Position numbers and translations under genes: made by a program
Notes under the pieces: generated by a model
Told to the model about the DNA's origin: nothing
What the model saw: the letters and a program-made list of their open reading frames with translations, nothing else
Databases searched by the model: none
Shown here: positions 1,153 to 18,342 of the stretch, one piece after another
Position numbering within the stretch: position 1 is the stretch's first letter
How the letters are laid out: every line of letters starts with the position of its first letter
Source: a virus
Strand: one strand, 5' to 3'
DNA: 30,382 bases
IMG/VR virus record: IMGVR_UViG_3300048588_001026
Span: 1 to 30,382 of that record

Positions 1153-4100
1153 ATGGAGCAAGATGCCTCAAAGGATGCTCTCGATCCGCCATCGGCGAAT
1201 CTGAAGATCGAGGTGACGCTTGTTGCCAAGCTGAACCTGGCAGATTTCCAGAATTCGGTCCCCTTGCTCAGGGAACTGGTGATCGCCAACGAATCCGCTT
1301 CCGTTTTCGCCGACATCGAGATCCGGATCAGCGCAACGCCGGCATTCTTGAAGCCAAAGACCTGGCGTCTGGACGAAATAGCCGCCGGTGTTCGCTGCAG
1401 AATCTCAGACCTTGATGTGCAGCTGGACGGGAGTGTGCTCGCACGCCTGACCGAGGCTGAACAAGCGACGGTGTGCCTGACGCTGCATCATCGCGGCAAA
1501 GGGGCAACTGAGCTGGCCCGCCGCGAGTGCGTAGTCGAGCTGTTGCCTCGTAATCAATGGGGCGGCATCGGGCATATGCCGGACCTGGTTGCGGCATTCG
1601 TGCAACCCAACGACCCTGCAGTCGATCGCGTGCTCAAGCGCGCGGCTGAGATCCTGCGGCAGAACGGCAAGATGCCGGCGCTCGATGGCTACAGCGGTGG
1701 CAGCAAGCGGGCTTGGGAGCTGATGTCCGGCATCTGGAGCGCGGTAGCGGCGATGCGCCTGGACTACGCCCTTCCTCCAGCGAGTTTTGAGCACGCTGGC
1801 CAGAAGGTCAGAGGCCCCGGACAGATCGAAGAAAGCGGACTCGCCACCTGTCTTGATCTGGCGCTGCTGTTCAGCGCGGCAATCGAGCAGGCGGGCCTTA
1901 ACCCGGTCGTCGTCTTCACCAAGGGGCACGCATTTGCGGGCGTGTGGCTGCGAGCGGAGGAGTTCTCGAATACGGTAGTTGATGACGTCACTGCACTGCG
2001 CAAGCGCATCAAACTCCAAGAACTGGTGCTGTTCGAGACGACGCTGGTCACGCAACAGCCTGCGCCAGGGTTTTCCTATGCGAGCCAACTTGGCGCGCAG
2101 CAGGTTGCAGATGAGAAAGATGAGGCGTTCGAGCTGGCTGTCGACATTCGCCGGGCACGCCTTCAGCGCATCAAGCCCCTCGCGGCGGCGGAAGCGCCAG
2201 CGACCACGACTGCGCCTCAGGCGACGGATCCGCCTGTGGTCCCCTTTGACGAAGCACCTGATCTCACCGAGACCGAGGTACGTGCCGATCCGGCAACACT
2301 GAATCCCAAGGATCGACTGGCGCGCTGGCAGCGCAAGTTGCTGGACTTGTCGCTGCGGAACAATCTTCTGAACTTCAAATCGAGCAAACAGAATCTGAAG
2401 ATCGAAGCGCCGGACGCTGGCCTTCTTGAAGACACCCTTTCCGAAGGACAGGCCCTGAAGATTCTTGCTCGCCCGGATCTGATGGATGGTGCCGATCCCA
2501 GGAATCGAGCGCTCTATGAGAGTCGTGAGCGGGAGGACGTGCGGCGCAATCATGCTCTCGACGCGCTGAAACGACGCGAGATCTATGTTGGCCTGCAGCC
2601 CGCCGAGTTGGAATCGAGGCTGGTCCAACTTTTCCGGTCAGCGCGAATGACTTTGCAGGAGGGCGGAGCCAACACGCTCTACCTGGCGCTGGGATTCTTG
2701 TCCTGGACTCGCGATGGCAAGGCCGAACAAAAATACCGTGCGCCGCTCGTCCTGATTCCGGTAACTCTGAGTCGGCGAAGTGTTCGATCCGGCTTCACGC
2801 TCACCCTTCACGATGACGAGCCCCGCTTCAATCCAACCCTGGTGGAGATGCTGCGCCAGGATTTCAAGCTCAATCTCGGCGTCGCCGAGGGCGAACTGCC
2901 CAGGGACGACTCCGGCCTCGACTTGCGAACCATTTGGGATACGGTGTCCCGAGCGATCAAGGACATCAAAGGCTGGGAGATTTCGGAAGAAGTCACGTTG
3001 GCGATGTTCTCGTTCGCCAAGTATCTGATGTGGAAGGATCTGACCGAGCGCACCGATCAGTTGCGCGAAAACCCGGTGGTCAGGCATCTGATCGACACGC
3101 CGAGGGAGCCCTATCCCCACGGCGTGGCCTTCCCGAATCCGAGGCGACTCGATCAGGACTTCACGCCGGAACAGACCTTCTGCCCCTTACCGGCGGACTC
3201 GTCGCAGTTGTCGGCCGTCATGGCAGCGGCGCGAGGCAAAGACTTCGTGTTGATCGGACCGCCGGGGACGGGCAAGAGCCAGACCATATCCAACGTGATT
3301 GCTCAGTGCCTCGCCGAAGGGAAGCGAGTTCTGTTCGTTTCCGAGAAGATCGCGGCGCTCGACGTCGTGTATCGCCGCTTGCGCGAAGTGGGACTGGGCG
3401 ACTTCTGCCTTGAATTGCATTCGAACAAGGCGCGCAAGCTGGATGTGCTCGCGCAGTTGCAGAAGTCCTGGGAGTCCAAGGGCGAAGTCGATGCATCCGC
3501 TTGGCGCGCGGAGGCGCAACGTTTGAAACGCATGCGCGATGACCTGAATGTCTATGTCGAACGGCTACACCTTCGCCATGCGAACGGCATCAGCATTTTC
3601 GACGCCATCGGTCGCGTTGTGGCCGCCGACAGCTCCTTCGCGCCGACGCTAAGCTGGTCGTCGCCAAGTGATCACGACTCGTCGTTGATGGAAGCCATGC
3701 GTGATGTCGTCGATCGCCTTGGCGTGAATGCGCTAGCGGTGGGCCACCAAAGCCTGCTGGCGCATCCGTTGGCGGCAGTGGGCAGTTGCGAGTGGTCGCC
3801 CACGTGGCAGCAGACCGTCGTCCAGTGCGCTCGCGATCTGATCTCGGCGGCGCGTCAGGTGGATTCCACTTATCGAGGGTTTCTGAATGCGTCTGGGCTT
3901 CCGCAGATTCCTGCGACCCGCCGTGCGAGAGGCGCGATCAGTGTATTGGCGCGGACATTGCCACATGCCGCGGGGCGAGATTGGCGGTTCGTCGTTCGGG
4001 ACGATGCACAGGCTATTGTCGATCGCCTCAAAGCAGGGGCGGAACTGCTGCGGCAACACGCCGCACTATGCGGACAGCTCTCGCCTGCTTGGACAGAGTC

Positions 4101-7100
4101 CATCGCTGGCGCTTGTCGCCGCGGCTTGGCGTTGCTTGAGAAGCGGCGGAGTGTTCACGCCGAATTGGCTCCTTCCTGGCCCCCCGGTGTTATTGCCGAT
4201 CTCAGAAAGGGTCTGGGGTTGCTCGACTCGCTCGCGCAAACAGCCGGTCGTATGTCCGCCAAGTACAGCGATGTCGTCGAACAGATCAACGTTCATCAAC
4301 TGCAGCGCGAATGGACCAAGGCCGAAAAGGCCATGTGGCCAATTTCTTGGCTTGGGAAGCGCAAAGTGCGGTCGACGCTCGAAGCAGCAGTCGTCGGCAG
4401 CGGGGAACCAGACGTCGCCAGCGACCTTCAGGCATTGGTAGACATCCGGCAGTTGCGCGCGGAGATCAGCAAGTTCGATCCGGGCGTACAGACTGCCGGG
4501 ATGTGGGATGGTCTGAAGACACGCAAGGAACTCGCGAATGCGTGCTTGAAGTTCCAGTTTGCACTCGACGCAGCCCGCCACGAGCGACCCTGGCAAGACC
4601 ATGGGCTGGAAGCCATCGCCGACGGTCACTGCGGTGAGCGCCTTGCCGCAGACTTGGCGCGGATGCGCGCAATTAGAGCGCTCGACGCAGAGATTGAGAA
4701 ACTGGGTCCGTTGGCGCAGGCAACCGGTGGCCTTTGGGCGGGACTCGCGACGGATAGCGCGCGTCTGGCGGCCGCACTGAGCTTTCATTCAGCGCTGCAG
4801 GGAATCCGCGAGCAAGGACCGCTGGTGGGAGACCACCAGAGCGTGGCAGATGGCGATTGCGGAACGTCGCTGCAGGCTGACCTGCGAACTATTCGGCAGC
4901 GCGAATCTGTAGAGCGCAGCATTGCCGCGCTCGAAGATCTTTCTGCTCTCACGGGTGGTTTGTGGCGCGGAGTTGGAACCAATCCAGGCGCGATCGACAC
5001 GGCGCTCAAGTTCCATGCGTACATTTCTGCTGCCGTTGCGGGCCTCACCAGCGAACCGCCGCTCCTGTCGGACATCAAGGCAGCCCTCGATCATCTTCTT
5101 GAACCGAACGACACCCGCTTGGGACCAGCCGGATCGGTTCGCTCAACAGGGCAGGCCTACGTCGACGCACTGAACGTGTTCCAGCCGAAAGTTGATTTGC
5201 TCGCCGCAGCTGGCGAGTTCACTGAAGCATCGAAATTGCGCTTCAATGAGATTGCGATCAGCGAGCTGACGGATAGCTGCAAGGGAATCGAAGCATCCGA
5301 ACCGCGAATGAACGCTTGGTGCGCCTGGCGCAAGGTTCGACAGCAAGCGGTCGCGCTCGGACTGTCGCCTTTGGTGCTGGGGCTCGAGAACGGTGCCATC
5401 GCCCCCGATCATGTGCGGCCAGCTTTCGAGGTTGCATATTGCCGATGGTGGTTGAATGCCGTCGTCGACCGTGAGCCGATCATTCGATCGTTCGTGTCCG
5501 CTGAGCACGAAAAGCGCATCCACGACCTTCGAGCGCTCGAGGGGCGGTATACGCGTCTCACGCAGGCGTGGGTTCGGGCGTCGCTATGCGGAAACCTGCC
5601 TGATCAAGACTCGGTGGCTCGCAGCTCCGAGTGGGGAATTCTTCGACACGAGATGAGCAAGAAGAAGCGGCACATGCCACTTCGCGAACTCATGAAGAGC
5701 ATCCCATCGGCGCTGACGAAATTGACGCCGTGCTTGCTGATGAGCCCACTATCGATAGCGCAGTACTTGAGCGCTGACGCGAGCGCCTTTGATGTGGTGG
5801 TGTTCGACGAGGCCTCCCAGATCCCTGTATGGGACGCCATCGGTGCTATCGCCCGTGGCAAGCAAGTGGTGATGGTCGGTGATCCTAAGCAGTTGCCACC
5901 GACCAATTTCTTCGATCGAGCGGAATCGGCGGCCGATGAGGAGGACGTCGAAGGGGACCTGGAGAGCATTCTTGACGAATGCCTGGGCGCCAACCTGCCC
6001 ACCATGAACTTGGCTTGGCACTATCGCAGCCGCAACGAAAGCTTGATCGCGTTTTCGAACCATCGCTATTACGGCGGCTCGCTGGTGACTTTCCCGTCAC
6101 CAATGACCGAGGACCGCGCCGTGAGCTTCCACTATGTGCCGGGCACCTATGAGAAGGGCGGCGCGCGCATCAACAAGGCTGAAGCCAAGGCTGTCGTCGC
6201 GGACATCATCGAGCGGTTGAGGATGCCGGGATTCCGGGAATCGAAACTGACGATCGGCGTTGTCACGTTTAACGCCGAACAGCAGGGGCTGATTGAGGAC
6301 CTGCTGGACGAGGAGCGGCGACGCGATCCCTCCATCGAGCCGTTGTTCGCAGAAGTTGAGCTGGAACCCTTGTTCGTCAAGAACCTTGAGAGCGTTCAGG
6401 GCGACGAGCGGGACATCATGTACTTCTCGATTACCTACGGGCCTGACCTGCACGGCGCAGTCTCGATGAACTTCGGGCCCTTGAATCGCGATGGAGGCGA
6501 GCGGCGATTGAATGTGGCCATCACGCGAGCACGGCACGAACTCAGGGTGTTTTCGAGCCTCAAACCGGAGCAGATGGACCTTGCGCGAACCCAGGCACTG
6601 GGTGTTCGTGATCTGAAGCATTTCCTGGACTTTGCTGATCGTGGTCCTCGGGCGCTGGCAGAAGCAACTCGGGCCAGCCAGGGTGATTTTGAGAGTCCCT
6701 TCGAAGAGGCGGTCGCTGCAGCACTCACTGCAAAGGGATGGGCTCTGCAAACCCAGATCGGCGCCTCCAAATTCCGCGTGGACCTCGCGGTTGTCCACCC
6801 CGATGCACAGGGGATCTACCTTGCAGGGGTCGAATGTGACGGAGCGACTTACCATCGCTCGGCGACTGCGCGCGATCGCGACATGCTTCGCGAGCAGGTG
6901 CTGCGAGGACTCGGCTGGGAAATCCTTCGTGTGTGGTCGACCGATTGGTGGGTCGACCGTGACAGCACGCTCAGGCGTCTTGACGAAAAGCTGCACGGGC
7001 TGCTCACTGATAGTCGCGCAAGGCGTGCGGCCGCTGCCGAGCAAGAAGCGGCTCGTCTGGCGGTTGCTGCTGCTCTGACCAAAGCTAGTGCGGAAGCCAC

Positions 7101-7770
7101 TGTCGAGCCTCCGCTGCCTCTGGCAGAGGGTGAGATTGGCGACGGAATCAATCAATCAGATGCGGTCCCGGGCAAGCCTGAGCAGCAGCGTGTTGCCATC
7201 GTCTCAGGCGTGGAATTGGAGTCCTACGCACGCAACACCAGCAGTGAGAAGTTGGAATCCTCTGCGACTTATCTTGAGGTGGACCCGGCGACGGCCGTCG
7301 CGGCTGTCGCGCCGGGCCAGTTCTTCGAACGCAGTTATGACACGGTGCTCCTCGAAATGATTCGGCACGTTGTCGAGAACGAAGGCCCAGTACTCGACGA
7401 CGTCCTGGCACGTCGCATTGCTCGCGCGCACGGTTGGCAAAAGACCGGCAGCCGGATTCAGGAAAGGGTCGAAGGACTTGCTGCGACGGCATTCCAAACA
7501 ACCACGGAGGACGTAGGCAAATTCTATTGGCCCACGTCGAAGGTCCCCGGCATTCCATTTGCATTTCGTCGTCCCGCAGATGACGCGGGGCGGGCACTCA
7601 ATGAGATCTGCATCCCGGAACTGGTAGCCCTTGCTCGCGAAGTGCTCGCCAGGGATCTAGGGGCTGACGCGGCAATCGTCGCGATGGCGAGAGACATTGG
7701 CTTGCAACGGCTCCGCGCTGCCAGTCGCGGGAGGCTTGAGCAAGCGATTGAGCTTGCCCGAAGCACTTGA
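1153..7770 (+). CDS. Giant transglutaminase-like / DUF4011 / SF1 helicase / Vsr-like nuclease / DUF3320 protein, probable defence protein
   Basis: A 2205-residue cytosolic multidomain protein. Residues 220-280 carry a transglutaminase-like patch: Cys233 (TCLD), His259 (GHAF) and Asp277/278. A DUF4011-type segment starts near 385 (LLDLSLRNNLLNF). The helicase core follows: Walker A GPPGTGKS at 702-709, DEASQ at 1552-1556, GDPKQLPP at 1576-1583, HYRS at 1623-1626, VQGDERD near 1748-1754 and NVAITRAR at 1787-1794. This is an Upf1/DNA2-like SF1 order with about 840 residues between motifs I and II. Residues 1846-1940 look like a PD-(D/E)XK nuclease of the Vsr/MTES_1575 type: FESPFEE, Asp1877, then Glu1894-Cys-Asp1896. 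A DUF3320-like region starts near 2057. This family is known from defence islands, often near restriction systems, which fits the divergent hsdM. The expected role is ATP-driven remodelling and cleavage of foreign nucleic acid; the real target is unknown. Start ATG has AGAGGTGAG upstream. The gene appears intact. Confidence 0.88.
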   Translation: MEQDASKDALDPPSANLKIEVTLVAKLNLADFQNSVPLLRELVIANESASVFADIEIRISATPAFLKPKTWRLDEIAAGVRCRISDLDVQLDGSVLARLTEAEQATVCLTLHHRGKGATELARRECVVELLPRNQWGGIGHMPDLVAAFVQPNDPAVDRVLKRAAEILRQNGKMPALDGYSGGSKRAWELMSGIWSAVAAMRLDYALPPASFEHAGQKVRGPGQIEESGLATCLDLALLFSAAIEQAGLNPVVVFTKGHAFAGVWLRAEEFSNTVVDDVTALRKRIKLQELVLFETTLVTQQPAPGFSYASQLGAQQVADEKDEAFELAVDIRRARLQRIKPLAAAEAPATTTAPQATDPPVVPFDEAPDLTETEVRADPATLNPKDRLARWQRKLLDLSLRNNLLNFKSSKQNLKIEAPDAGLLEDTLSEGQALKILARPDLMDGADPRNRALYESREREDVRRNHALDALKRREIYVGLQPAELESRLVQLFRSARMTLQEGGANTLYLALGFLSWTRDGKAEQKYRAPLVLIPVTLSRRSVRSGFTLTLHDDEPRFNPTLVEMLRQDFKLNLGVAEGELPRDDSGLDLRTIWDTVSRAIKDIKGWEISEEVTLAMFSFAKYLMWKDLTERTDQLRENPVVRHLIDTPREPYPHGVAFPNPRRLDQDFTPEQTFCPLPADSSQLSAVMAAARGKDFVLIGPPGTGKSQTISNVIAQCLAEGKRVLFVSEKIAALDVVYRRLREVGLGDFCLELHSNKARKLDVLAQLQKSWESKGEVDASAWRAEAQRLKRMRDDLNVYVERLHLRHANGISIFDAIGRVVAADSSFAPTLSWSSPSDHDSSLMEAMRDVVDRLGVNALAVGHQSLLAHPLAAVGSCEWSPTWQQTVVQCARDLISAARQVDSTYRGFLNASGLPQIPATRRARGAISVLARTLPHAAGRDWRFVVRDDAQAIVDRLKAGAELLRQHAALCGQLSPAWTESIAGACRRGLALLEKRRSVHAELAPSWPPGVIADLRKGLGLLDSLAQTAGRMSAKYSDVVEQINVHQLQREWTKAEKAMWPISWLGKRKVRSTLEAAVVGSGEPDVASDLQALVDIRQLRAEISKFDPGVQTAGMWDGLKTRKELANACLKFQFALDAARHERPWQDHGLEAIADGHCGERLAADLARMRAIRALDAEIEKLGPLAQATGGLWAGLATDSARLAAALSFHSALQGIREQGPLVGDHQSVADGDCGTSLQADLRTIRQRESVERSIAALEDLSALTGGLWRGVGTNPGAIDTALKFHAYISAAVAGLTSEPPLLSDIKAALDHLLEPNDTRLGPAGSVRSTGQAYVDALNVFQPKVDLLAAAGEFTEASKLRFNEIAISELTDSCKGIEASEPRMNAWCAWRKVRQQAVALGLSPLVLGLENGAIAPDHVRPAFEVAYCRWWLNAVVDREPIIRSFVSAEHEKRIHDLRALEGRYTRLTQAWVRASLCGNLPDQDSVARSSEWGILRHEMSKKKRHMPLRELMKSIPSALTKLTPCLLMSPLSIAQYLSADASAFDVVVFDEASQIPVWDAIGAIARGKQVVMVGDPKQLPPTNFFDRAESAADEEDVEGDLESILDECLGANLPTMNLAWHYRSRNESLIAFSNHRYYGGSLVTFPSPMTEDRAVSFHYVPGTYEKGGARINKAEAKAVVADIIERLRMPGFRESKLTIGVVTFNAEQQGLIEDLLDEERRRDPSIEPLFAEVELEPLFVKNLESVQGDERDIMYFSITYGPDLHGAVSMNFGPLNRDGGERRLNVAITRARHELRVFSSLKPEQMDLARTQALGVRDLKHFLDFADRGPRALAEATRASQGDFESPFEEAVAAALTAKGWALQTQIGASKFRVDLAVVHPDAQGIYLAGVECDGATYHRSATARDRDMLREQVLRGLGWEILRVWSTDWWVDRDSTLRRLDEKLHGLLTDSRARRAAAAEQEAARLAVAAALTKASAEATVEPPLPLAEGEIGDGINQSDAVPGKPEQQRVAIVSGVELESYARNTSSEKLESSATYLEVDPATAVAAVAPGQFFERSYDTVLLEMIRHVVENEGPVLDDVLARRIARAHGWQKTGSRIQERVEGLAATAFQTTTEDVGKFYWPTSKVPGIPFAFRRPADDAGRALNEICIPELVALAREVLARDLGADAAIVAMARDIGLQRLRAASRGRLEQAIELARST
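4441..5130 (+). repeat. Three-copy tandem protein repeat (about 77 residues) inside the helicase insertion
   Basis: At protein level, residues about 1097-1172, 1173-1249 and 1250-1326 align as successive units. Each begins with a short helical stretch (RQLRAEI, RALDAEI, SVERSIA), then a GMW/GLW motif with Trp at 1118, 1195 and 1271, then a helix such as LKFQFAL, LSFHSAL or LKFHAYI. Copies 1 and 2 share an ADG(H/D)CG element that copy 3 lacks. Trp spacings are 77 and 76 residues. DNA identity is low, so the duplication is old. Confidence 0.7.
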
Positions 7771-13667: not shown

Positions 13668-16600
13668 TTAGCGATCCACGTCGCCGCGGATCTGGACCTG
13701 GAAGGAATCGCGATCTTCGGTGGCTGGACCCTGCAATACGGTGCGGGCGACCCATACCGGGAAGTTCGCGGCGGCGGTGTTGAAGCGCAGCACATTGCCG
13801 GCCGACCAACCGGCGCCCCAGCCCATCGCGCGCAGGCGGAAGTACGGCGCCTGCGTCTCCGGGTTGATCGGCGCGAGATCGTTGGTGGTGTTGCCGATGG
13901 CGATCTGGCCTACCGACTCGCCGATTACCCGGTACTCGGTCGTGCCGGTGAAGATCAGCGCCCAGCGTTCCTCGATCGCGCCGCGGTTGCTGACGGCGAT
14001 CGGGTAGACGGCCCGGTTGTACTGGGCGATCGTGGCTGCGCCGATGCGGCTGTCCTTCCACTCGCCGGTCCAGGTCTGCTGCGCAAACAGCGTGTGCGCG
14101 CGGGCTTGCAGGTCGCCAATGATCAGCGCCGACGACACGCGCGTCTCGCCACTGGGGAACTCGTGCGTCAGCGGGCGCGTCAGCGACAACACGCCGTTGA
14201 TCTGGGTGTCCGAGATCAGCGCCATGTCTTCGACGCGGTGCTCGGCTACCAGCGGCTGCGAATAGCCGGTCAGGTCGATCGGCGTCTGCAGCGTCAGCGA
14301 ACCCTGGTCGAGATCGACGACGTATCTCTCCGGTGGCAACACGTGGCCCTCGGCATCGAGAACGCGAACGCCAGCAAGGCGCACCCGACCGAGGTCGAGT
14401 ACGTCGCTGGTGGCCGGATTGGGAAACGGCGTACGCACCGTGTGATGAACCACGGCGACATCGCCAGGCCGATAGATCGGCACCTTGCCGTCGGGCGGAA
14501 GGCGCACCGGATCGAGGCCCAGGACGTCGGCGCTCAGCGGCAGATAGGTGAACGCGACGGCATTGAAGCGCAGCGTATCGGCCAGCACCGGCAGCGGCTT
14601 GAAGATGCGTCCGTTGACGATCGCCTCGGGCGAATACCAGACCTGCCCCTCATTGCCGGCGGCATCGACCCAACGCCCGAAGCGCACGCGCGCGACGCCA
14701 GTCTGGTAGTCGACGCTGCCCTGCATGGATTGGGTGTCGATGGCGCCGGTCGTGTTTGCGGTTGCAGTGATCGAGCCACCATTGAGCGGCGTGGCGCGGA
14801 TCTGCAGTGAGCCTGGACGCACCGGTGCGGCGGGTACTCGGAAGCACACCTCATCGACTGGCTGCCCGGTGAGTTCGGTCAGCAGCGACTGCAACTGGAT
14901 GGTGTTCGGTTGGCCGGGTTGGTAGACGCGGATCTCGCAACTGCCCGAGGCGTAGTCGATGGTCCCCGCCAGCGTGCCGGCGCCGGTGTTCGCGTCGATA
15001 TCGACGTAGAGCTTGCCGAGGCGATCGACGTAGACCTTCTCGCCCAGTTGGAAGCGCACCGACCCGGGCACGATGCGCTCGGCGTAGCGATCGGTCAGAT
15101 CGACGCGCAGGTCGGCGGCAACGATGGTCTCTTGCGCCGCGCTCGGCGAGTCGGTCGCGCGGTAACGCACTTTGACCCAGCCGGACTCGTCGAGCGGCAT
15201 GTAGGCGGCCGCCGGCACGTACTCAAAATGCGTGAAGGTGTTGCGGTAGACCGGCACCAGTTCGTTGTTGACCCGCGTGACACCGATCTGCACCACGCTG
15301 TAGCGCGGGAACGGAATCGAAATGGTCAGATCCGGGCGAAAGGTGATCGAGCCTGCCGCGTAGTCGATAGTGCCCGTGACACTCTGTCCGAAGGTGCCGG
15401 TGGTCGGGTTCGGACCCGTCGCAGGCAGATCGCGCGCGATCTTGATCGGATCGATCGGCCGCACCAGTTGCATCTCGGCCGGTGTGGTCGAGATCGGGTC
15501 GTAGTCATCGATGACCAGGTTGAACTCGAGTTCGACAGAGTTCTGTCGCAGGTCGCCCTGGGCCAGGTTGAGCGAGATCGTGCCGTTGGCGTTGCGCAGC
15601 GGGTGCGGAAAGGTCTGCTCGATCGGCGGACCATGCTGATAGGTCAGCACGTACTCCGCGCCGCCTGCGGGCAGGACGCCAGGCGTGAATGACAGTTCCC
15701 CTTGGGCGTAGCGCACCGTGCCACTGGCATCGCCGGTGATCGCGCCCCTGCCGTCATCGTTCGCGGTCTTCGTTGTGGTTCCCGTGGTCCAGCTGATCGT
15801 CAAAGTCCCCGGCACCAGCCCCGCGTTCGCACAGGTGTGCGTGATGCGCGGTGCCGGTACGATGGCATTCGAACGGTTGAAGTAGCTGGCGGCCGTGCCC
15901 CAGGCAAACAGCACCTCGGTGTTGGCATCGGCCAGCGCTCCGGTGGTCACCGTCACCGTACCCGTGACGAAATCGATGCTGCCCGCGCCGAAGGCAGAAT
16001 CCGCCGCGCGCAAAGCGCCATCGCCACGATCACGCAACTCGTACCACTTGGCCTGCGCCATGTAGGCGACGATCAGGCTGCCGGGCTTCGGGGGCGGATC
16101 CAGCGTGATGGTGTAGGTATAGCCGCGGCCCTCGGCCGGCACGGCGATCGCCGCGGTGTCGGCAATCCGGATGGGTTGCGCAGCCGGCCGGAAGTTGACG
16201 GTCTTCCAGCCCGAGTAGGTGGGCGATTCCGGTGCGAAGGTCAGGATGCCGCGACCGTAGTCGACGGTACCGATGGCGGTGCCGGCGACCTTGATCTGGC
16301 CGGCATCGTCGACCAACTCGGTGCCCCAGTTGGTCACGCGCAAGGTGCCGGGAACCACGCCGGAGCCGACGTGCAACGGGAAGTCCGGTCCGATGCGGGC
16401 CGCCGTCTGAAACGTCACGATGGCTGACCCGGAATCGACCAAGGGCTGGGATTGGCCCGATGCGTTGAGGTCTACCAAAGGCACCTCTGCTTGCGCCGAA
16501 GGCACCAGTTGCCCGAATAACGAAGCCACCTGGACACGCAGGTCGCCGATGCCGGCAGGTGCGACGGTAGGCTGCACGCCAAAGTAGACAGCAGCATTGG

Positions 16601-17270
16601 CGACCACCGTGTCGCGGGCCACCGCGCGTTGTGCACCGTCGTCCCGAAACAACGGCGCCGGACCGTCGAAGTCATAGCGCAGCGCATCCGCGATTTCGCA
16701 GGTGGCGACGGTTCCTCGGAACCGGTCCTGTCCCAGCTGAAACTCGCGCTCGACGGTCGAGATCCGCGTGATGCGAACGTACTGCTCCACCTCGGTCGGC
16801 TTGGCTTCGTCCTGCACCAGCACCAGCGTCTGCCCGACGCGCGGCAACGGATCGCCCGTCTTCAGCAGCAACGCGATGGCGCGCTGACCGGTGAGTTGGC
16901 GCTCCAGCAACTGGCCGGGCCAGCGCACGCCACGGGCGAGGTAGCGTTCGATTCGATCTTTGGCCGCCTCGCGTTGATCGACCCAAGAGCGCGTCGTGAA
17001 CAGCGTCACCGCGACACGCGGGTCATCCGGCGCATCCGCCACGATGGCATGTGCGCCGAAGTAGCTGTCGGTGGAGTCCGTCAGCACGCCGACAAAGCAT
17101 TTACGCAAGCTCACCCGGCCATAGGTGCGATCAAGCTCGGAAATGTCCGGGAACAGATTGTTCGACTGACCATCGACGATGACGCGGCCAGTCATGCGAC
17201 CGCCGCCATCGAAAGTGTCGGACAGCCGTTCGGAGGCGAGCAATTGAATGTCGCCGGTGAGGATGGGCAT
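13668..17270 (-). CDS. Very large beta-repeat tail-tip protein, 1200 residues
   Basis: The largest tail-tip protein. The N-terminus (MPILTGDIQLLASERLSD, then VNNLFPDIS-like NNLFPDISELDRTYGRVSLR) is shared with large tail proteins of several proteobacterial prophages. The N-terminal 230 residues look globular. Residues about 230-1000 are almost entirely beta strands and contain at least six copies of a short motif G-(T/S)-(I/V)-(D/R)-(Y/F)-x-x-G near residues 334, 427, 515, 632, 768 and 849. The C-terminal part includes SETRV-like and beta stretches ending in FQVQIRGDVDR. It is likely a tail-tip or fibre-like structural protein. ATG 17270 has no strong ribosome site. The gene follows a plus-strand moron, so it either needs read-through from the tape-measure side or its own promoter in 17271-17433. 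Confidence 0.8.
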   Translation of the reverse strand: MPILTGDIQLLASERLSDTFDGGGRMTGRVIVDGQSNNLFPDISELDRTYGRVSLRKCFVGVLTDSTDSYFGAHAIVADAPDDPRVAVTLFTTRSWVDQREAAKDRIERYLARGVRWPGQLLERQLTGQRAIALLLKTGDPLPRVGQTLVLVQDEAKPTEVEQYVRITRISTVEREFQLGQDRFRGTVATCEIADALRYDFDGPAPLFRDDGAQRAVARDTVVANAAVYFGVQPTVAPAGIGDLRVQVASLFGQLVPSAQAEVPLVDLNASGQSQPLVDSGSAIVTFQTAARIGPDFPLHVGSGVVPGTLRVTNWGTELVDDAGQIKVAGTAIGTVDYGRGILTFAPESPTYSGWKTVNFRPAAQPIRIADTAAIAVPAEGRGYTYTITLDPPPKPGSLIVAYMAQAKWYELRDRGDGALRAADSAFGAGSIDFVTGTVTVTTGALADANTEVLFAWGTAASYFNRSNAIVPAPRITHTCANAGLVPGTLTISWTTGTTTKTANDDGRGAITGDASGTVRYAQGELSFTPGVLPAGGAEYVLTYQHGPPIEQTFPHPLRNANGTISLNLAQGDLRQNSVELEFNLVIDDYDPISTTPAEMQLVRPIDPIKIARDLPATGPNPTTGTFGQSVTGTIDYAAGSITFRPDLTISIPFPRYSVVQIGVTRVNNELVPVYRNTFTHFEYVPAAAYMPLDESGWVKVRYRATDSPSAAQETIVAADLRVDLTDRYAERIVPGSVRFQLGEKVYVDRLGKLYVDIDANTGAGTLAGTIDYASGSCEIRVYQPGQPNTIQLQSLLTELTGQPVDEVCFRVPAAPVRPGSLQIRATPLNGGSITATANTTGAIDTQSMQGSVDYQTGVARVRFGRWVDAAGNEGQVWYSPEAIVNGRIFKPLPVLADTLRFNAVAFTYLPLSADVLGLDPVRLPPDGKVPIYRPGDVAVVHHTVRTPFPNPATSDVLDLGRVRLAGVRVLDAEGHVLPPERYVVDLDQGSLTLQTPIDLTGYSQPLVAEHRVEDMALISDTQINGVLSLTRPLTHEFPSGETRVSSALIIGDLQARAHTLFAQQTWTGEWKDSRIGAATIAQYNRAVYPIAVSNRGAIEERWALIFTGTTEYRVIGESVGQIAIGNTTNDLAPINPETQAPYFRLRAMGWGAGWSAGNVLRFNTAAANFPVWVARTVLQGPATEDRDSFQVQIRGDVDR
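14688..16261 (-). repeat. Repeated G-T-x-D-Y-x-x-G beta module in the 1200-residue tail protein
   Basis: Six related units can be read: GTVDYGRGILTF, GSIDFVTGTVTV, GTVRYAQGELSF, GTIDYAAGSITF, GTIDYASGSCEI and GSVDYQTGVARV. They are spaced by about 80-135 residues. Each is preceded by a strand-rich segment, with PGTLRV/PGSLQI-like phrases before several copies. The pattern suggests serial beta-sandwich domains derived from one ancestral unit. Confidence 0.65.
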
Positions 17271-17433
17271 GGGGCTGGTGTGCTGTGGTTGCTGTTTGCG
17301 TAACGGTGTTCGTCGAGTCGATGGTCACTTCACCGGGGTGAGGTACTGCCAGTGCAGCACCCGTCCGTTTCAGAGCGCCGACCCTGGTGCCAGAATCCAG
17401 CCAGTGCGCATACGTGAGGCTTGGCCATAGACG
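17271..17433. promoter_or_regulatory. Divergent intergenic region upstream of the moron and the 1200-residue tail gene
   Basis: 163 bases between two outward-facing starts. This is the only place for a promoter serving the plus-strand moron. TCACC-GG-GGTGA is a short inverted repeat near 17330-17341. I see no clear -35/-10 pair. No strong Shine-Dalgarno precedes the ATG at 17434; GAGG lies about 20 bases upstream, which is too far to be convincing. Confidence 0.35.
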
Positions 17434-17946
17434 ATGAACCCCCTCTATGTTGGTGATTCATACGACCTCGTGAAGCGCTTCTTCGGCCAAGAGCTTGGAA
17501 AGCTCGGGTACGAGGTCGCAGTTGACCCGCGATTCACGGGTGAGTGGAGCGGCCGGGAGGCGAGCTTCTTTCGCCTGATTGGCGCGAGACACGTGCAGGA
17601 TCTGGTGACACCGAACGCGCGGAGAGCGCTGCTCATTGATCCTGACACCGGCATCAATGCGGCAGGCGGCCCAAAACATGTCTCGTTTGATCAGATCCGA
17701 AAGGCTGCGGACGAGCACGAGATGGTCTTCGTCTTCGATCAGTCGTTCTCAAGGCAGCACGATCCCGCGGAGGTCATGTTCACGAAGCTCGCCGAGCTGA
17801 GCCGAACTGGCCTGCACGCGATGTACTACGACTCACACGCGCACTTTGCGTTTGCTTCCAAAGATGGATCTGCAATCAACGAGTTGCATCGGCATCTGGT
17901 TAGCACTGGGTTGCCTGAATCAAGGCTTGTTCTGGGGAACCCGTAG
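17434..17946 (+). CDS. Moron: uncharacterised 170-residue protein on the strand opposite to the late operon
   Basis: A soluble alpha/beta-looking protein without signal peptide or membrane segment. Distinct phrases are YVGDSYDLVKRFF at the start, ALLIDPDTGI in the middle, EMVFVFDQSFSR, and MYYDSHAHFAFAS near the end. The regular strands ending in acidic residues suggest a Rossmann-like or nuclease-like core with Asp/Tyr/His clusters; this is a pattern guess. I recall similar solitary hypothetical proteins but no function. It sits inside the tail module yet faces the other way, its stop touches the stop of the next minus-strand gene with no gap, and its base composition is visibly less GC-rich than its neighbours. 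These are signs of an inserted accessory gene. A role in superinfection exclusion or lysogenic conversion is possible but unproven. Confidence 0.82.
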   Translation: MNPLYVGDSYDLVKRFFGQELGKLGYEVAVDPRFTGEWSGREASFFRLIGARHVQDLVTPNARRALLIDPDTGINAAGGPKHVSFDQIRKAADEHEMVFVFDQSFSRQHDPAEVMFTKLAELSRTGLHAMYYDSHAHFAFASKDGSAINELHRHLVSTGLPESRLVLGNP

Positions 17947-18342
17947 TCAGACCTGCATCAGTCGAATCGCAACTCGCCAATGGCTGTCCGGTGCCAGCCC
18001 GCCAAAGCCCAGCACCGGCTGCGCCTCGATGGCCCCGTCCTGGTGTCGGAACGCGACGGTGAGAGGGCGACCATCGACAAGTTGCAACTCGAATGTTCGT
18101 TCCGGCATCGAGGCCCACTCGTAGAGTCGGTCGACGGTCGTGCGCGAAACCCACGCCATATCGTCGGGCGCCTGCAGCGTGATCGGTCGGCCGGCCTGGC
18201 GCGTAGCGCTCTCGATCAGCAGTGCACCGGTCAGCAAGTAGCTCGTGCTAGCGACAGCAGGCGTCCACAGATGCTCGTCGATCCACTGGAGATCGTCCGG
18301 CAAAGTCAGCGTTTGGCCGGAAGGTAGTTGGCGCAGTTCCAT
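17947..18342 (-). CDS. Small tail protein after the tape measure
   Basis: A 131-residue soluble protein, beta-rich (MELRQLPSGQTLTLPDDLQW, then RTFELQLVDGRPLTVAFRH, then HWRVAIRLMQV). It directly follows the tape measure gene, three bases after its stop, the place of minor tail proteins L/M in lambda. Function is probably in tail-tip assembly; I recognise no named domain. Its stop codon abuts the stop of the convergent moron, so no terminator separates them and the transcripts can collide. Confidence 0.77.
   Translation of the reverse strand: MELRQLPSGQTLTLPDDLQWIDEHLWTPAVASTSYLLTGALLIESATRQAGRPITLQAPDDMAWVSRTTVDRLYEWASMPERTFELQLVDGRPLTVAFRHQDGAIEAQPVLGFGGLAPDSHWRVAIRLMQV

Follow-up and report, generated by a model that had tools for sequence, protein, structure and literature searches.

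An antisense gene inserted in the late operon of a tailed phage

The DNA analysed here, which we refer to as the window, is a virus record of 30,382 bases from IMG/VR. Its late genes lie on the minus strand and include those for the portal, protease, major head protein, major tail protein, tail chaperone and tape measure protein, as well as a 131-aa gene, a 1200-aa gene, tail proteins and the endolysin. This late operon contains one antisense open reading frame, intact from an ATG start to a TAG stop (Table 1). As an earlier note on this DNA had described, it is a single reversed gene situated between the small gene that follows the tape measure gene and the gene for the 1200-residue protein. 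Its stop was also said to abut the neighbouring stop exactly, and the coordinates agree: the last base of the frame is 17946, and the stop codon of the convergent 131-aa gene ends at 17947. Codon periodicity across the interval was detected in the frame of this gene only. The GC content of the gene was 57.5%, compared to 63.6-67.9% in the late genes tested, which confirmed the lower GC content remarked on earlier. A consensus scan found neither a sigma-70-like promoter nor a terminator for the gene.

Table 1. Coordinates of the features at the locus
Feature	Position in the window	Strand	Remarks
Moron coding sequence	17434..17946	+	170 aa; based on the ORF, Chlorobi MAG relatives, model and fold matches; predicted RlmJ-like Rossmann fold
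Late gene, 131 aa, phrog_4408	17947..18342	-	Late-operon gene adjoining the moron; the two stops abut
Late gene, 1200 aa, phrog_6128	13668..17270	-	Next late gene past the insertion
Tape measure protein gene, 1326 aa	18346..22326	-	Relatives carry cargo at a second site, its junction to 18342
Leader, 163 bp, non-coding	17271..17433	+	Precedes the moron; on its far side the 1200-aa gene starts in the opposite direction; presumed to hold a promoter for the moron
Segment of 673 bp	17274..17946	+	Missing in sister contig L002; 37 bp (L002:5397-5433) stand in its place there
GDSYDLVK, residues 7-14	17452..17475	+	Register of RlmJ motif X (G11..D15..K18); invariant G, D, Y, D, V, K
DPDTGI, residues 69-74	17638..17655	+	Follows a predicted core strand, where RlmJ has motif IV (DPPY)
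VFDQSF, residues 100-105	17731..17748	+	End of the next predicted core strand

The gene is missing from related records

Comparison of the window by blastn with the sister contig L002 (IMG/VR 3300048587_001057) revealed ~90% DNA identity on both sides of the gene. The borders of the alignment paired 17273 with L002:5434 and 17947 with L002:5396, and delimited the segment that is missing from the sister. In L002 the 131-aa gene ends at 5396 and the 1200-aa gene starts at 5437, so that the two genes are 40 bp apart, compared to 676 bp in the window. We measured the same junction in 63 related records (sets of 12 and 52, with one contig in common). The moron protein was encoded in none of the 63, two GenBank records among them having been checked additionally, and the gap between the 131-aa and the 1200-aa gene ranged from -4 to 78 bp in 62 of them and was 383 bp in L021. 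An inserted mobile element was considered and rejected, because the borders carry no direct repeats or paired ends; one imperfect 12-nt inverted pair, 748 nt apart and within the flanking genes, was judged to be due to chance. The gene is a single-gene moron of a tailed phage and has taken the place of 37 bp that separated two late genes. The earlier note had read it as a reversed single-gene moron, and this reading is well supported by the empty site in the closest sister, by the absence of the gene from the 63 records and by its shifted composition.

Further evidence for a moron came from four relatives in which other antisense cargo occupies the same junction or that between the tape measure gene and the 131-aa gene. 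In L021, the 131-aa/1200-aa junction holds an antisense ORF (5618-5863, minus strand of that record) that matches phrog_5079 over its C-terminal 80 residues; here, too, the stop abuts that of the neighbour. Relatives of this ORF occur in phage records of Streptococcus, Latilactobacillus and Acinetobacter. At the tape measure/131-aa junction, the gap is 49 bp or less in nearly all related records (for L020, where the script failed to locate the start, tblastn hits leave ~20 bp). It reaches 650-1252 bp in four of them, L021, L022, L054 and L114, and the best ORF of each runs against the late operon. Two of these ORFs have no homology that proves their status as genes: a 177-aa ORF without a family in L021 (4576-5109, minus strand) and a 339-aa ORF in L022 (4369-5388, minus strand), which has a lipoprotein-like start, an Ala-rich end and no clear family match. 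The close relative L054 carries a pair of Gp49/HigB-like and HTH_37/HigA-like genes (14510-15096, minus strand; PF05973, 7e-26, and PF13744, 9e-12), and L114 a DUF6037 gene (13697-14332, minus strand; 1e-26). All six insertions seen at the two junctions are antisense, for which random orientation gives a probability of 1/64 by our own arithmetic. The 131-aa late gene is flanked by a hotspot of antisense cargo.

These observations bear on whether the gene serves the phage itself, in anti-defence, superinfection control or as an aid to replication, and is expressed in infection and not as lysogen cargo. It is located in a phage genome and its open 163-bp leader could serve early, but it opposes the late operon, is missing in every relative and shares its hotspot with typical lysogeny cargo, such as the toxin-antitoxin pair. 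We consider this explanation improbable.

The phage is probably temperate and carries a second cargo gene

No integrase was found in this fragment, but integrases are present in four related records, which suggests that the phage has a temperate lifestyle. Past the endolysin gene, at 1153-7770 on the plus strand, lies a gene for a 2205-aa protein that matches the NCBIfam family 'anti-phage protein ProA' (NF058533) with 2360 bits, the cut-off being 1500. The protein comprises DUF4011, two helicase AAA parts, an MTES_1575 nuclease and DUF3320, and also matches PDC-S37/Hhe in PADLOC. The presence of a ProA-type gene fits a temperate phage with protective cargo, but does not by itself establish the function of the moron.

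The moron product belongs to an undescribed protein family

Searches of Pfam, PHROGs, PADLOC and NCBIfam returned no match to the moron protein up to E values of 10 or 1. No relative was found by tblastn in phage and plasmid records at E 0.01, the plasmid matches seen at E 10 being unrelated and partial. Scans of IMG/VR, whether by the protein itself or by profiles of its two halves, yielded no confirmed relative, and the sequences of the PDB gave chance matches only. A genome-wide pattern scan detected a relative in one Chlorobiales MAG, and searches around it detected further copies. A profile search confined to the phylum of these Chlorobi MAGs placed relatives in 3 of 394 genomes. The Chlorobi proteins are 29-37% identical to the moron protein (E 2e-16 to 4e-9), match it over most of its length and begin at the same start Met, and we therefore regard the moron as a real gene and not a chance ORF. 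Judged by its sequence, the moron product is a member of an undescribed protein family that is absent from the libraries searched. Hypothetical proteins with similar GDSYD...DPDTG...DQS motifs may also occur elsewhere.

Three motifs, GDxYDxVK, DP[DN]TGI and V(F/Y)DQSF, are conserved across the relatives. In a four-sequence alignment the invariant residues included G7, D8, Y10, D11, V13, K14, P32 and T35, as well as D69, P70, T72, G73, D102, Q103, S104 and F105; when two further copies were added, one Thr (DPDKG) and the Gln (DESF) varied. The earlier note had picked out GDSYD, LIDPDTG and YYDSHAHF as conserved-looking phrases. All three are present and the regions of the first two are indeed conserved, but the third is mostly not, since one Tyr and the last Phe alone are kept among the relatives.

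In the MAGs, the genes are chromosomal and lie beside genes for a PAP2-type phosphatase and a transporter, as read from their translations. These surroundings are ordinary chromosomal ones and not defence islands. Two of the Chlorobi genomes hold more than one copy, in multiple or tandem arrangement: G001 on contigs C56 and C275 (L007, L006 and L018) and G204 on contig C118 (L015 and L017). The L006 copy has an extra helical insert. The relatives being chromosomal genes in distant bacteria, and the moron itself a single occurrence, it could be a recent bacterial capture that has no selected function in the phage and is heading for loss. We regard this as very unlikely, given that the frame of 170 codons is intact, the start is conserved and all family motifs are kept.

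The predicted structure resembles RlmJ

An AlphaFold2 model of the moron protein, built from two sequences with the Chlorobi relative as the second row of the input, had a pLDDT of 73.9 and a pTM of 0.72. Its elements follow the order helix-strand-helices-strand-helix-strand-helix-strand-strand-helix. When the model was compared with the PDB by Foldseek, the first four ranks were occupied by RlmJ (E 2.1-2.5e-3, probability 0.95-0.98), with low global TM-scores of 0.41-0.46 and no match as strong as E 0.001. In VIA-align, ranks 1-10 belonged to the RlmJ family (Z 8.2-8.8, 141-151 residues, rmsd 3.4-4.1) and the next fold, spermidine synthase, scored Z 7.8, which leaves RlmJ a lead of ~1. For the Chlorobi relative, intended as an independent check, a poor model (pLDDT 52) was obtained, which failed to bring up RlmJ. 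Taken as a prediction, the model of the moron protein supports a reduced RlmJ-like Rossmann fold of the methyltransferase type, and because the margin is small and the global TM-scores are low, 'methyltransferase-type Rossmann fold' is the firmer part of this assignment and 'RlmJ-like' the less firm one. The earlier statement that the protein has no recognisable domain thus holds for family searches but not for the model.

No virion-like fold was among the best structure matches, and no PHROGs match or occurrence in relatives places the protein among phage virion proteins. Neither of the observations that the earlier note had named as contrary to its reading, a structural gene fixed in the relatives or a virion-like fold, was made.

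The protein resembles RlmJ on its putative substrate side and differs on the cofactor side

We compared the start of the moron family with 10 RlmJ sequences. RlmJ begins with H-A-G-N-x-A-D-V-x-K-H and the moron family with x-x-G-D-x-Y-D-x-V-K-[KR], which brings the Gly, Asp and Lys into register. In a post hoc test, column permutations reached as good an agreement in 0 of 5000 cases for the family and in 9 of 5000 for the moron alone. In RlmJ, D15 positions K18, and both K18 and the D164 of DPPY are essential (PMC3814359). D11, K14 and D69 (of DPDT) of the moron protein stand in the register of D15, K18 and D164, respectively.

Other parts of RlmJ have no counterpart. The moron protein lacks equivalents of Tyr4 and His6 and carries DPDT in place of DPPY, and the SAM motif I of RlmJ (DTHAGxG) is replaced by PRFTGEW in the moron and PMFTDTF in the Chlorobi relatives. 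Strand 1 and the DPD strand are only ~30 residues apart, and the stretch of motifs II and III is missing. The PF04378 profile matched neither the moron protein nor its relatives, and hhalign against RlmJ was not significant (P 0.12). By these sequence comparisons, the moron protein falls outside the RlmJ family. A three-Cys-motif partner (TIGR04474), considered for its similar order of elements, gave no match either (hhalign P 0.23 against 12 members).

It is conceivable that the moron encodes an active but divergent methyltransferase, which would bind SAM in a non-canonical way and modify host or phage RNA or DNA, for instance to mask a nuclease target. The fold matches are overwhelmingly to SAM-dependent enzymes, and two of the three residues in RlmJ register correspond to essential ones. 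However, the glycine motif I is absent in the Chlorobi members (PMFTD) and partial here (PRFTG), the short distance to the DPD strand leaves no space for motifs II-III, and DPDT has taken the place of DPPY. This makes such activity quite unlikely. Because it has kept neither the SAM loop nor the PPY or the motif II/III segment, the protein is probably not a canonical methyltransferase.

A different activity on the same type of scaffold would be that of a metal-dependent nuclease or phosphodiesterase, or of a toxin-like effector, with a metal bound by the Asp residues, RNA, DNA or a nucleotide signal as the target of cleavage, and a role in abortive infection or against phages. Most of the invariant polar residues are acidic, and the set is placed at the ends of core strands or on a helix expected nearby; moreover, the cargo of the hotspot includes the toxin-antitoxin pair and DUF6037, and the same record encodes the ProA-type anti-phage protein. 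On the other hand, no nuclease or PADLOC family matches the protein, the neighbouring genes include none that resembles an antitoxin, and the clustering of these residues in space is presumed. We rate this explanation as unlikely.

Proposed function and expression of the moron

The reading that we favour, with moderate confidence, is that of a moron in an antisense hotspot whose product has a reduced RlmJ-like fold, is non-canonical and directed at nucleotides or RNA, and would be expressed in the lysogen, silenced late and of benefit to the lysogen. Based on the model, the protein may have kept an RlmJ-like substrate side, G-x-x-x-D-x-x-K and the motif-IV Asp-Pro being on the substrate/catalytic side of RlmJ, and appears to have lost the cofactor side, that is, the motifs I-III that hold the cofactor. 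Rather than act as a SAM methyltransferase of the canonical type, it would bind or act on nucleotides or RNA through D8, D11, K14, D69, D71 and D102.

The orientation of the moron would favour expression of the cargo while the late genes are silent. In the lysogen, the gene would be transcribed from its own leader, opposing the silent late operon, and upon induction convergent late transcription would shut it off. This proposal of silencing is modelled on a case described in S. aureus prophages, where an antisense gene within an operon makes two expression states exclusive and forms a lysogeny/lysis switch (PMC11087260). The lysogen would most likely be the one to benefit, for instance when attacked by other phages; a protective function is plausible, and the moron is probably a host-modifying or protective passenger gene. 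A more specific version, in which a methyltransferase scaffold deprived of its cofactor site has retained its substrate side and become a prophage anti-phage effector that acts on RNA or on a nucleotide signal, occupies an antisense cargo site and is therefore switched off by late transcription when its own prophage is induced, has in our view little chance of being correct.

The moron product enlarges the repertoire of prophage cargo by a protein family that none of the searched libraries contains. The findings also single out, within a widespread tail module, two neighbouring junctions that recurrently receive cargo, always antisense in the cases seen, which makes the site a practical one for finding new accessory or defence genes. 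Whether cargo placed against a late operon is thereby switched off upon induction becomes a testable question.

Comparison with known systems

Like other prophage morons, the gene in the window is single and intact, has a shifted GC content and a leader, is absent from sisters and sits between two undisrupted late genes. Unlike them, it opposes the late operon, has no recognisable promoter or terminator and encodes a protein of an undescribed family. With the Chlorobi MAG family (L006, L007, L010/L014, L015 and L017) it shares the start, the three motifs and 29-37% identity, whereas the Chlorobi genes are chromosomal, sometimes in tandem, and encode proteins of 198-264 aa with inserts.

RlmJ, the 23S rRNA m6A2030 methyltransferase (PF04378), is the best match in fold and shares G-x-x-x-D-x-x-K and the motif-IV Asp-Pro. 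It is a protein of 280 aa, compared to 170 in the moron, which lacks Tyr4/His6, the motif I glycine loop, PPY, the motif II/III segment and the helical insertion, and has no significant sequence match to it.

The noncontiguous operons of S. aureus (ith/tha, PMC11087260) differ in that their antisense gene encodes an inhibitor and lies in the lysogeny operon, whereas here cargo lies in the late operon, as known from sequence. What the two systems have in common is an antisense gene within an operon, where opposing transcription could make the two states exclude each other.
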